A DNA stretch of 64,000 bases, from positions 328,176 through 392,175 of the forward strand of contig JOKI01000001.1 of assembly GCA_000722615.1 (NCBI GenBank). Direction: 5' to 3'. The translations under genes were made by a program, and so were the position numbers. Below the pieces are notes generated by a model. That model searched no databases and had not been told where the DNA came from. It saw only the letters and a program-made list of their open reading frames with translations. Below, piece after piece: positions 4,470 through 64,000 of this stretch; within the stretch, counting starts at the first letter, position 1; every line of letters starts with the position of its first letter. Source of the DNA: Pseudorhizobium pelagicum. Its GTDB lineage: Bacteria > Pseudomonadota > Alphaproteobacteria > Rhizobiales > Rhizobiaceae.

Positions 4470-4485
4470 TTAACTGTCTGTTAAC
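4470..4485. promoter_or_regulatory. CtrA-type box upstream of the cbrA-like kinase
   Basis: TTAA-CTGTCTG-TTAAC, a perfect match to the CtrA consensus TTAA-N7-TTAAC. It ends 31 bp before the ATG of the kinase gene, close enough to overlap its promoter or leader. The phaP regulatory region is about 70 bp further left. Confidence 0.6.
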
Positions 4486-9904: not shown

Positions 9905-10074
9905 AGTCAATGCTGTTCCAACGGAGTGGATCGAAGACTTCATGTCCTGAAAGCGGCTGCTCGGATCCCGTATACACGAGATGGTTCCGTATTTCTTTAC
10001 TCTTGACCAATCCTCATTAACGTCGGGTTAAAATGGCACAGGTCGGGCCGGCAGGCGCCCCGCCCCTACCGCCT

Positions 10075-54597: not shown

Positions 54598-55269
54598 TCA
54601 GCTCCAGTCGATGCAGTAGCCAAGGAATCGCTTGGAATCGACCGGATCGTGGCCGAGGCGCTTGCGCAGCTTCTTGCGGAGCTTGCTGATGTGGCTTTCC
54701 ACGACGTTCTCTTCAACTTCCTCGTCGAAGATGCCGTAGATCGCGTTGAAGATCTGGGTTTTCGAGACGCGGCGGCCGCGGTTGGCGACCAGGTATTCCA
54801 GGATACGTCGCTCACGGCGCGGCAAGGCGAAAATCTCGCCTGCGATCTCCGGATCACGGCCATCAGAGAAGACCCGGATCTGCCCGACGTCGGTGTAGTT
54901 GGCAATGGCCTTGAGGCGGCGACGGATCGCAGCGGCCCTGGCCAGAATCTCACGCGGATGGACCGGCTTGCGCACGACGTCGTCGACGCCACTGTCGAAG
55001 AGCGCCAGGGTCGCATCCAGCGAGGGATGATCGCTGACAGCGATCACGGGCGCCTGGGATCGGTCCCGGATCGTCCGCGGCAGTTCGAGCATGCGATCGC
55101 CCTGACCGATCAGGAAGGCTTCCACGGCATGGATGTCGCCATCCGCTGCCGTGCTGACCCATTCGGCAAACTCTGCCGGGTCAAAGCCGGTGGAAGGGAT
55201 GCCCTCGCGGCCAAAAAGGGATGTATAGCCGTCTTTAACGAGCTCGCGCTCATCAACCACTACGATCAT
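54598..55269 (-). CDS. rem: OmpR-type flagellar transcription activator Rem/FtcR
   Basis: A 223-residue regulator with a receiver-like domain (1-115) and a C-terminal winged helix (about 130-223). The winged helix contains [53 protein letters not shown] and [12 protein letters not shown]. Size and place, downstream of motBCD and just before flgE, match Rem of S. meliloti and FtcR of Brucella, which activate late flagellar genes. The receiver keeps an acidic pair (DE, residues 6-7) and the lysine of RKP, but the position of the phospho-acceptor Asp appears to be Gly55. A CtrA box lies about 95 bp upstream of the ATG. Confidence 0.9.
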
Positions 55270-55363
55270 TCGTCCGCCTCCGAATCAGTTGTGGTGCTTC
55301 AATGACCCTATGGGTACGAATCGCGGGAATCGGGCACAAGCTGCAGGAAGTTAACTAAACAAA

Positions 55364-55379
55364 TTAATAGTTGATTAAC
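55364..55379. promoter_or_regulatory. CtrA-type box upstream of rem
   Basis: TTAA-TAGTTGA-TTAAC, an exact TTAA-N7-TTAAC match, in an AT-rich stretch 95-110 bp upstream of the rem ATG. The 283-bp gap between rem and the transglycosylase gene is the only sizable gap in the middle of the flagellar cluster, consistent with a separate promoter here. Confidence 0.6.
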
Positions 55380-60871: not shown

Positions 60872-62152
60872 CTACTGCCGGAAGAGCGTGAGGATGCTCT
60901 CCGCGTTGGTATTGGCGATCGACAGCGACTGGATGCCGAGCTGCTGCTGTGTCTGGAGCGCTTTGAGGCGTGTGGATTCCTCGTTCATGTCCGCGTCCAC
61001 CAGTCGGCCGATACCCTTGTCGATGACGTCGACGAGGGAGGCGATGAAATCCTCCTGCAGGTCGACGCGGCTCTGGATGGAGCCAAGGCTCGACGCGGCG
61101 CTCGTCATTGCAAGCAGTTGCTTGTCGACGAAGCTCGTCATGATGTCGAGGACTTCCTGGTCCTCGGCAATGGATCCCGGGACCAGAGCGTTCAGGGATG
61201 CCGCCATCACGTCGAGCGTGGTGATGTCCAGCGTGACGACAGACATGTCGACCTTGCGGCTGTCCAGGCTGTTGGCGGCGGAGACCACGAAGAAGAAATC
61301 GTCGGTACCGTCGTTGTGGACGGACGTGGTGACGGCGGGAAAGGCGGCCGGATCCGTCGTCGTGACTTCGACCCACTTGTCGTCGGTCACCTTGAAGTAC
61401 GAGGAACCGCCGACATCGTAGATGGAGGCATCCGCGTTTCCGTCCGCTCCGAGCGCGGCCAGATCGGCGTCAGAGAACGTCGGGACCGCATACTGGCTGT
61501 TCGTCGTGATGCCCGTGTCCGTTTCCGACACCGTCACAGCCAACTCGTTCGCCGCGACATAGGCGAGATCCTGATCCAGAATGCCGAGCTTGCCGCCGCT
61601 CGTATCAAACAGGACGGTGCTGGAATTGAGGACGTAGTCGACGGTGGTTACGGCGACCTCGCCGGAGGGACCGCGGGTAAAGGCGGATACGACCTCCTTG
61701 ATCTGCGGGCTTGGCGTCGCAGGGCTGCCGCCGTCGCTGATCCGTCCCTGGATCCAGTTTTCGCCCGAGAAGCTCGCGGATTCGGAAATGCTGCTGAGCT
61801 GCTCCTGCAGCTGGGTGATCTCTTCCTGGATCTTCGAGCGGTCCACGCCAACGCCGTAGGCTGCGACGAGCTTCGACTTGATCTCCTGGACGGTCGCGAT
61901 CGCGCTTTCCATCGCCTCATAGGCCGTATCGACCTTGGCGGCTCCGAGACCGAGGGCGTCCTGGACGGTCGAAAGCGTGGAGCTGTCGGACCGCATGGTC
62001 GTCGCGATGGACCAATAGGCGGCGTTGTCCTCGGCTTTCTCCACCCTCAACCCGGAAGACACGCGCGCCTGGGTCGTCTCGAGGTTGCGATCAATCGATC
62101 GAAGCGTCTGGAGCGCCGCCATGGCGGCGACATTGGTGAGGATGCTGGTCAT
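60872..62152 (-). CDS. flagellin (second complete paralogue)
   Basis: A 426-residue flagellin. The D0/D1 N-terminus is MTSILTNVAAMAALQTLRSI, then LETTQARVSSGLRVEKAEDN-AAYWSIATTMRSD. The C-terminus is LVDADMNEESTRLKALQTQQ-QLGIQSLSIAN and ends TLFRQ. Residues about 170-330 are the variable exposed region and differ strongly from the neighbouring flagellin. ATG 62152 is the shared family start. A tandem CtrA box array lies about 115-140 bp upstream. Confidence 0.95.
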   Translation of the reverse strand: MTSILTNVAAMAALQTLRSIDRNLETTQARVSSGLRVEKAEDNAAYWSIATTMRSDSSTLSTVQDALGLGAAKVDTAYEAMESAIATVQEIKSKLVAAYGVGVDRSKIQEEITQLQEQLSSISESASFSGENWIQGRISDGGSPATPSPQIKEVVSAFTRGPSGEVAVTTVDYVLNSSTVLFDTSGGKLGILDQDLAYVAANELAVTVSETDTGITTNSQYAVPTFSDADLAALGADGNADASIYDVGGSSYFKVTDDKWVEVTTTDPAAFPAVTTSVHNDGTDDFFFVVSAANSLDSRKVDMSVVTLDITTLDVMAASLNALVPGSIAEDQEVLDIMTSFVDKQLLAMTSAASSLGSIQSRVDLQEDFIASLVDVIDKGIGRLVDADMNEESTRLKALQTQQQLGIQSLSIANTNAESILTLFRQ

Positions 62153-62266
62153 TGCCTGTTGCCTCTGTCGTGGATGCACGATCCTCCCGCAAAGGAGGGC
62201 GACGACGAGGAAGCTTCATGCCTAGCCGCCCGTTCAGTCCCATCATGGGGGGCGATCCGTCGTTCG

Positions 62267-62293
62267 TTAACAAATCATTAACGAGCAGTTAAC
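62267..62293. promoter_or_regulatory. tandem overlapping CtrA boxes upstream of flagellin 60872-62152
   Basis: Three TTAA half-sites at exact 11-bp steps: TTAA-CAAATCA-TTAA-CGAGCAG-TTAAC. The first and second halves make one perfect TTAA-N7-TTAAC (62267-62282), and the second and third make another (62278-62293). The array is 115 bp from the ATG. Confidence 0.6.
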
Positions 62294-62373
62294 AGTCGAG
62301 GCTTGCGTCTGGCAATCTTTCAAATCTTTCCTTCTGGCCAACGGCAGGTTTCACGCAAGCTCCGGACGAGCGA

Positions 62374-62459: not shown

Positions 62460-63650
62460 CTACTGACGGAAGAGTGACAGGATATTTTCGGAAGCGGTAT
62501 TGGCGATGGAGAGCGACTGGATGGCCAGTTGCTGCTGGGTCTGCAGCGCCTTCAGTCGTGTCGATTCCTCGTTCATGTCGGCGTCCACCAGACGGCCGAT
62601 GCCTGAGTCGATCGAGTCGGTAAGGGCTGCGATGAACTCTTCCTGCATCCCGATACGCATCGCGATGGATCCAAGATCGGCTGTGGCGCTGATCATAGCC
62701 TCCAGCGCAACGTCCGTTGCCTGTACCATGACATCCAGTTCTTCATTCGTCAGAGCCGTGATATCTACCAGATCCAGCGAATTCGGCGCTTCGACAGTCG
62801 TTCCCGCCGGAATCGGCGTGGTGTCGACAGACCAACCCACCGGACCCGCGCTGGTTGCCGCCACTTCCTGACCCGGAACCGTGGTGGAATCCACGGCCTT
62901 GACCCACACCCCCTGAACCTTGACGTAGTCGGCTGCGGGAGTCGCTGTGTTGGCGTAGTTGCCCTCGAAGGTGGCGCCATCAGCGATCAGGGCGTCGATC
63001 GTGTAGGCCAGGACGGTATGCTTGGACGTGACGCCGTTGGTATTGATGTCCAGCGTAACTGATGAAGGCGTGACGTTGAAGGTCCGGTCGAGGATGCCGA
63101 GATCGCCGCCATCGTCGAACAGCACAGTGTTGCCGCTCAGGTCATAAATGATCTTCTTGACAGCGACCGTGCCATCTTCAGAGCGAATGAAAGAGCCCAC
63201 GACGTTCTTCTGAACGGTGTTGCCGGTGGCGTTGGTAAGATCGGCCTGCATCCAGTTCTCTCCGGAGAAGGAAGCTGCCGATGCGATGCTGCGGAGTTGT
63301 TCCTGCAGCTGCTCGATTTCCTCCTGGATTTTTGCGCGGTCAACACCTTCTTCGGTTGCCGCTACCATTTTCGCTTTGATTTCCTTGACGACTTCCACAG
63401 CGCTTTCCATCGCTGCATACGCCGTATCGACCTTCGCCGCGCCCAGTCCCAGGGCATCCTGAACAGCCGAGAGCGCCATGTTGTCCGACCGCATGGTCGT
63501 TGCAATCGACCAGTAGGCGGCGTTGTCGGACGCTGTTCCTACGCGCAGACCGGTGGAGACCCGTGCCTGGGTTTCTTCCATGCCGTCGTCGATGGAACGG
63601 AGGGTCTGAAGTGCAGCCATTGCTGCTACGTTAGTGAGAATGCTTGTCAT
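62460..63650 (-). CDS. flagellin (first complete paralogue)
   Basis: A 396-residue flagellin. The N-terminus MTSILTNVAAMAALQTLRSI is identical to that of the neighbour, followed by MEETQARVSTGLRVGTASDN-AAYWSIATTMRSDN. The C-terminus carries LVDADMNEESTRLKALQTQQ-QLAIQSLSIANTASENILSL. The central surface region (about 165-300) is unlike that of the other copy, except for SFSGENWMQ and its surroundings. ATG 63650 follows GGGGCAACCACC. Each flagellin gene here has its own terminator, so they form separate transcription units. Confidence 0.95.
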   Translation of the reverse strand: MTSILTNVAAMAALQTLRSIDDGMEETQARVSTGLRVGTASDNAAYWSIATTMRSDNMALSAVQDALGLGAAKVDTAYAAMESAVEVVKEIKAKMVAATEEGVDRAKIQEEIEQLQEQLRSIASAASFSGENWMQADLTNATGNTVQKNVVGSFIRSEDGTVAVKKIIYDLSGNTVLFDDGGDLGILDRTFNVTPSSVTLDINTNGVTSKHTVLAYTIDALIADGATFEGNYANTATPAADYVKVQGVWVKAVDSTTVPGQEVAATSAGPVGWSVDTTPIPAGTTVEAPNSLDLVDITALTNEELDVMVQATDVALEAMISATADLGSIAMRIGMQEEFIAALTDSIDSGIGRLVDADMNEESTRLKALQTQQQLAIQSLSIANTASENILSLFRQ

Positions 63651-63830
63651 GGTGGTTGCCCCTTTATTGGCTAGATGAGGGACATCCCGGAAGCGCCGGG
63701 AACGATGGTCTGGCCTAATGCCGTTAACCGCTTCTTCGTCTAGGTTAACCCATCGTTACGATGATTGCAGTTAAGCCAGCCATGGTTAACAAAACCTAAA
63801 CGGGATCGCAGAAAGTTAATAAAATGCGAA

Positions 63831-63852: not shown

Positions 63853-63877
63853 CGATGTTCGGAATTGCTGTGTCGGA

Positions 63878-64000
63878 TCAACGGAAGAGCGTGAGGATGC
63901 TTTCCGATGCGCTGTTGGCGATGGACAGCGACTGGATGGCCAGCTGCTGCTGCGTCTGCAGGGCCTTCAGGCGGGTCGACTCTTCGTTCATGTCAGCGTC
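63878..64000 (-). CDS. flagellin, C-terminal end only
   Basis: The last 40 codons of a third flagellin, cut by the right edge. Read on the minus strand it ends DADMNEESTRLKALQTQQQL, then AIQSLSIANSASESILTLFR, matching the conserved C-terminal D0 helix of the two complete copies but lacking their final Gln. By synteny it would be the first gene of the flagellin row (flaA in related species), but this cannot be shown from 123 bases. Confidence 0.9.
   Translation of the reverse strand, partial: DADMNEESTRLKALQTQQQLAIQSLSIANSASESILTLFR

Follow-up and report, generated by a model that had tools for sequence, protein, structure and literature searches.

A conserved CtrA box and a probable -10 hexamer within the three-half-site array upstream of a Pseudorhizobium pelagicum flagellin gene

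Introduction

Do three TTAA half-sites, evenly spaced upstream of a flagellin gene, form one regulatory unit? The question is raised by a locus in a stretch of 64,000 nucleotides from Pseudorhizobium pelagicum (the window). An earlier note on this DNA had proposed that a spacing of one helical turn between the half-sites could allow cooperative binding of CtrA in rows, and that the gene might thereby gain cell-cycle or stage-specific expression of its own. The gene, which we label fla1 (60872..62152, - strand), encodes a flagellin of 426 aa with Flagellin_N and Flagellin_C domains and adjoins p215-motB. The gene order fla1, p215, MotB was found at 13 of the 13 loci tested.

Results

The array and the N7 spacing in the genome

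The array is real and exact. A pattern search found TTAACAAATCATTAACGAGCAGTTAA at 62267-62292 of the + strand once in the window and in none of 100 shuffles, and this is the sole exact three-half-site array of the 5,134,606-base (5.13-Mb) genome. Its layout is TTAA-N7-TTAA-N7-TTAA, with the half-sites at 11-bp steps as the earlier note had described. On the strand of fla1 the array reads GTTAACTGCTCGTTAATGATTTGTTAAC and spans the stretch from 140 to 115 bp before the start codon (ATG at 62152).

The spacing within the array is also favored elsewhere in the genome. TTAA-N7-TTAA occurs 35 times genome-wide, and the reversed control pattern occurs 8 times. Over all spacings from N3 to N16 there are 105 TTAA pairs, 70 of them at the 13 spacings other than N7, which makes N7 strongly over-represented between TTAA half-sites (35 versus 70 over 13 other spacings, Poisson P = 2e-17). 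Such a bias is expected for CtrA. A chance origin of the N7 box was rejected on the strength of this bias. The genome also encodes one CtrA (G000:C9:49032-49703; 424 bits against a curated cut-off of 350), and the fla1 promoter has the TTAA-N7-TTAA(C) box that a CtrA-bound promoter would be expected to carry.

The window holds 31 TTAA in its 64 kb and five of the 35 genomic N7 boxes, two of which make up the array. At this density, by our own arithmetic, chance would place an additional TTAA at exactly 11 bp from any of the 35 boxes about 0.03 times, a figure qualified by the clustering of TTAAs near boxes. The 20 of 35 boxes listed include five cases of another TTAA that overlaps or lies next to the box, with spacings of N4, N7, N9, N9, and N15; a third TTAA is thus common, and N7 is not favored for it.

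Elsewhere in the window, N7 boxes were found at 4470-4484, before a gene for a PdhS-like sensor kinase (972 bits against a curated cut-off of 2000), at 10017, before a gene without family matches, and at 55364, before the gene of an OmpR-type regulator that we took for rem by its place and domains. This rem-like gene has three half-sites upstream, arranged as TTAA-N7-TTAA-N9-TTAA (55351-55378). The box at the PdhS-like kinase gene could possibly provide feedback onto the CtrA pathway.

Conservation of the gene-proximal box

We compared 50 rows, comprising 35 distinct fla1-type promoters from named genomes and from the same genus. The gene-proximal box, TTAATGATTTGTTAA (62267..62281, - strand), is exact in 34 of the 35, mostly as TTAACGATTTGTTAA, and the one exception (L017) has a single mismatch. 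The full three-half-site array was found in only one of the 35, the window itself. In the nearest relative (G002, with a fla1 protein 83% identical) the sequence is TTAACTGTCCGCGTTAACGATTTGTTAAC, which places the distal TTAA at N9 instead of N7, and the distal element of the other orthologues reads ATAACT, CTAACT, TTACCT, GTACCT, or TTACGT. An array of at least three half-sites in 11-bp steps is accordingly not a shared feature of these promoters, and its absence from orthologous promoters belongs to what the earlier note had named as speaking against its reading.

Judged by this comparison, the array is made of two unrelated parts, an old box at 62267-62281 and a distal TTAA (62289-62292) that has not been kept as a half-site. 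The N7 bias, the single CtrA gene over the curated cut-off, and the deep conservation of the proximal box together leave the assignment to CtrA in good standing: the box at 62267-62281 is very probably a CtrA site. An inverted repeat around the box (CTGTC...GACAG) was present in Neorhizobium and, by eye, absent in Agrobacterium, and was dropped as a candidate.

The distal TTAA as a promoter element

The distal TTAA lies within the hexamer TTAACT (62287..62292, - strand), which follows TTGCCA (62310..62315, - strand) at a spacing of 17 bp; TTGCMA is found in 30 of the 35 distinct promoters. We measured these distances in 39 fla1-type promoters, namely the differing ones of the 35-distinct set and four motB-linked flagellin loci (L081, L071, L070, and L061), seeking both hexamers by free pattern search and leaving out flaA-type loci. 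TTGC[ACT]A and the second hexamer were found together in 30 of the 39, and the spacer was 17 bp in all 30, a constancy to be read knowing that the promoters are related and that the hexamer patterns were first noticed in the same alignments. Four further spacers of -3 were not counted, as they came from another TTGCTA that overlaps the hexamer. In the same 30 promoters the CtrA box follows the second hexamer at a distance of 6 bp in 25, 7 bp in two, and 5, 4, and 3 bp in one each. To produce these five lengths, four or more changes are needed, and the protein tree agrees with repeated change. The outlying lineage L061 reads TTGCTA-N17-TTAATA, at a distance of 7 bp from the box.

The hexamer pair was not matched in nine of the 39 promoters. 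In L033 a 17-bp spacing separates TTGCAA from TTACGT, a pair that the search pattern does not cover, and L017 and L018, the second and third nearest relatives, have degenerate hexamers. The other six (L031, L063, L084, L081, L071, and L070) are without TTGC[ACT]A and have two boxes each, 24-25 bp apart. Both boxes are exact in five of the six, and in L071 the second box has one mismatch; of the two, it is the downstream box that is conserved.

The distal element thus stands at a constant 17 bp from TTGC[ACT]A and at no constant distance from the box, a pattern that does not support the earlier claim of a cooperative row of three half-sites. Most simply, the distal element is probably a -10 element and the third half-site a promoter element in disguise, with TTGCCA and TTAACT as putative -35 and -10 hexamers. 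A strict scan for the sigma-70 consensus (TTGACA/TATAAT) found no promoter at fla1, so it is the comparative spacing that carries the promoter assignment. A flagellar sigma-28 promoter for fla1 was rejected, as the genome gave no FliA over the cut-off and four weaker matches.

The neighboring flagellin gene and flaA-type promoters

The neighboring gene, which we label fla2 (62460..63650, - strand), encodes a flaA-type flagellin of 396 aa. The earlier note had held that fla1 alone has the array and that no N7 box precedes the other complete flagellin. For exact boxes this stands, since none was found in the 350 bases available before fla2, but it fails for a degenerate box: the fla2 promoter carries the CtrA-like box TTTAGGTTTTGTTAAC (63785..63800, - strand), that is, TTTA-N7-TTAACCAT with one mismatch in the first half-site. 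After 10 bp this box is followed by TTAACT (63769..63774, - strand), the predicted -10 hexamer of fla2.

The same box and 10-bp spacing recur in flaA-type promoters. A script found a YTA motif exactly 10 bp after TTAAC in 17 of 20 such promoters, which were picked for their visible layout and with other flagellin paralogues outside the sample; a further locus (L047) without promoter-like sequence had been dropped. In the remaining three (L045, L056, and L066) the script took another frame, and the same 10 bp was seen by eye in the alignment. fla2 and the 17 promoters thus have a -10-like hexamer about 10 bp after the box, as taken here to mark a CtrA-activated promoter, and the fla2 layout would match activation from a box at -35. 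No such hexamer follows the box of fla1, where the stretch is GC-rich by eye, as it is in the orthologues read. The contrast between fla1 and fla2 is one of geometry, and not of whether a CtrA box is there.

By eye, the leaders of fla1 (62153-62230) and fla2 (63651-63760) contain GCATGA and CCGG-containing blocks common to fla1-type and flaA-type genes, which may be a target of FlbT-like translational control. A third flagellin gene (63877-64000) is cut by the contig end, which lies 207 bases after the window.

Multi-half-site arrays elsewhere in the family

An exact triple occurs in 67 of 394 genomes of the family. In the 90 genomes in which a control was counted (G057-G110 and G205-G240), 21 genomes carried a triple and 23 the reversed control pattern, so enrichment over the control was not found for triples as a class.

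We fetched 30 array loci and read ten of them for their neighbors. Six of the ten, from four genera (L125, L132, L135, L139, L140, and L141), lie about 90-130 bp before a gene for a class A penicillin-binding protein; the product at L135 has Transgly and Transpeptidase domains, and the family search supports this name and no narrower one. We then took 30 class A penicillin-binding protein promoters (L157-L186) from 104 matches in 111 genomes. Among them, 25 have an exact N7 box and three have an exact triple; in 12, another TTAA follows the box by 14 bp, a possible place for a -10. The genome of the window has a single box before its class A penicillin-binding protein gene, and G084 has, by coordinates, four half-sites there. 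At L127 and L128, exact triples have a CitMHS-type transporter gene nearby, whose product carries TrkA_C domains (tested for L128).

One of the 30 fetched loci, L138 of G165, has four half-sites in 11-bp steps (L138:1501-1537) with a flagellin start 139 bp away, and its gene-nearest box lies 10 bp before TATATT in an activator layout. In G057, which shares its genus label with G165, four half-sites at 11-bp steps precede an open reading frame for a glycine-rich product of 106 aa (L137:1501-1537). Tandem CtrA arrays may well exist, and fla1 is not their best candidate: L138 is a better one for a cooperative CtrA row than the array of the window.

Discussion

Predicted repression of fla1

We propose that fla1 has a promoter with one conserved CtrA operator and no three-half-site array. 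Its core promoter would be TTGCCA-N17-TTAACT, running from 62315 down to 62287 on the - strand, and the CtrA box TTAATGATTTGTTAAC, which begins 5 bp after the second hexamer, would then cover about +1 to +15. The distal TTAA would be the -10 hexamer, TTAACT in this species, placed 11 bp from the box by a change in length. CtrA~P bound at this box would block RNA polymerase, and fla1 would be held down at high CtrA~P and made at low CtrA~P. At fla2, a box at -35 with fixed phasing would instead let CtrA activate. On balance we think it probable that fla1 is such a one-operator promoter, with a repressing CtrA box over its start.

In Caulobacter, a full CtrA site near -35 is reported to activate and a site over -10 to repress (PMC4287350, PMC6180460). 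If TTGCCA-N17-TTAACT is the fla1 promoter, for which the strict consensus scan was negative, the CtrA site overlaps the -10/+1 region, and by the Caulobacter rules a box over the predicted start site would sit in a repressor position. The loose phasing of the fla1 box also fits steric repression, whereas a phased activator box of the flaA type keeps its distance. Repression by CtrA is known in the Rhizobiaceae from the report that mutating predicted CtrA sites raised the reporter activity of dgcB and Atu3318 in A. tumefaciens (PMC7003649). The layout of fla1 hints that CtrA switches the gene off rather than on. The earlier note's expectation of control distinct from the neighboring flagellin is thereby borne out as a prediction from layout, with fla1 and fla2 opposite.

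In Agrobacterium the locus tag is taken to be Atu0567, and in S. meliloti the gene at the place of fla1 is taken to be flaC. A literature search on the tag found no papers, and among the literature matches listed, seen as titles and abstract openings, the phrase 'CtrA represses' did not occur with flagellin and rhizobia. In S. meliloti, flaC is listed as a direct CtrA target (PMC4433202), and flaA, flaC, and flaD are each preceded by a predicted CtrA motif (PMC3616915). Some reports run counter to repression, however. Flagellar genes are described as unchanged in an A. tumefaciens pdhS2 mutant (PMC7003649), and most CtrA-dependent genes of S. meliloti as activated (PMC4433202). CtrA sites in agrobacteria are also reported to lie further upstream than in Caulobacter, so the Caulobacter position rules may not transfer to fla1 (PMC10469942).

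Alternative readings

CtrA could instead activate fla1 from a start further downstream, with the box near -35 and the TTGCMA-N17 hexamers being something else. The reported role of CtrA in S. meliloti as mostly an activator, motility genes included (PMC4433202), would agree with this, as would the leader blocks that, by eye, fla1 shares with flaA-type genes. We consider it unlikely, since the would-be -10 stretch is GC-rich by eye in fla1 and in the other orthologues read, and the layout that it requires is shown by flaA-type promoters and absent in fla1. Activation from a box at -35 was rejected for fla1 because no AT-rich hexamer was seen by eye at the right place.

A cooperative row of three half-sites with its own cell-cycle timing for fla1 draws on the exact 11-bp steps, unique in the genome, on the multi-half-site arrays that seem to exist at the G165 flagellin and class A penicillin-binding protein genes, and on the report that half-sites can act for CtrA in Caulobacter (PMC4287350). 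It is harder still to sustain for fla1, given that the array occurs in one of 35 orthologous promoters and gives way to N9 in the nearest relative, that the distal element tracks TTGC[ACT]A and not the box, and that third TTAAs stand near boxes at various spacings. The least plausible reading, which we regard as very improbable, is that a regulator of similar taste other than CtrA uses the box as its operator (Rem-like or MucR/Ros-type). In its favor, the Rem-like protein of the window (54598-55269) matches the CtrA model at 69 bits, far below the cut-off of 350, and in Caulobacter some promoters targeted by CtrA are reported to have MucR as well (PMC4287350). Against it, N7 boxes stand before non-flagellar genes, among them those for a PdhS-like kinase and for class A penicillin-binding proteins, as expected for CtrA, and S. 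meliloti flagellin promoters are reported to be bound by CtrA (PMC4433202).

Implications for rhizobial flagellins

The fla1 element is of an ordinary kind, a CtrA box at a rhizobial flagellin, with an interesting geometry. On the repressing reading, CtrA should act in opposite directions on the adjacent genes fla1 and fla2, a prediction relevant to the question of why these bacteria maintain several flagellins. More tentatively, and with less confidence than we place in repression itself, Rhizobiaceae might wire neighboring flagellins to CtrA with opposite signs, the flaA-type being activated at -35 and the motB-linked type repressed over the start. The cell might then produce the two subunits at separate stages of its cycle and place them in different segments of the filament, an arrangement that would be conserved across Agrobacterium, Neorhizobium, and Pseudorhizobium relatives.

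The comparison corrects the tempting reading of a cooperative CtrA row and carries a warning: TTAAnT -10 hexamers can pass for CtrA half-sites beside real boxes. Class A penicillin-binding protein promoters are notable among the better places to study multi-half-site CtrA arrays.

Comparison with known CtrA-regulated promoters

Like fla1, flaA of S. meliloti is a rhizobial flagellin gene with an N7 CtrA box, reported to be bound and activated by CtrA (PMC4433202). It is fla2 of the window that matches flaA; the box of fla1 would lie after the predicted -10 at a variable distance, and not 10 bp before it. The site position predicted for fla1 is that of Caulobacter ctrA P1 and mipZ P2, where a CtrA site at the -10/start region is reported to repress (PMC4287350). 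Those promoters have a half-site, whereas at fla1 a complete N7 box closely follows the predicted -10, and its repression is a prediction.

Among fla1-type promoters, it is those of Sinorhizobium and Shinella, with their two boxes, that Caulobacter hemE Ps most resembles, as it has CtrA sites at -35 and over -10 (PMC11264516). In fla1 of the window the upstream box is missing, whether by loss or from the outset, and its place is taken by TTGCCA. Caulobacter pilA is also a surface-organelle gene, with four reported CtrA sites of which the upstream ones repress (PMC11264516). The pilA sites are separate and irregularly spaced, with no half-sites shared at 11-bp steps, while at fla1 it is a single box that has been conserved.
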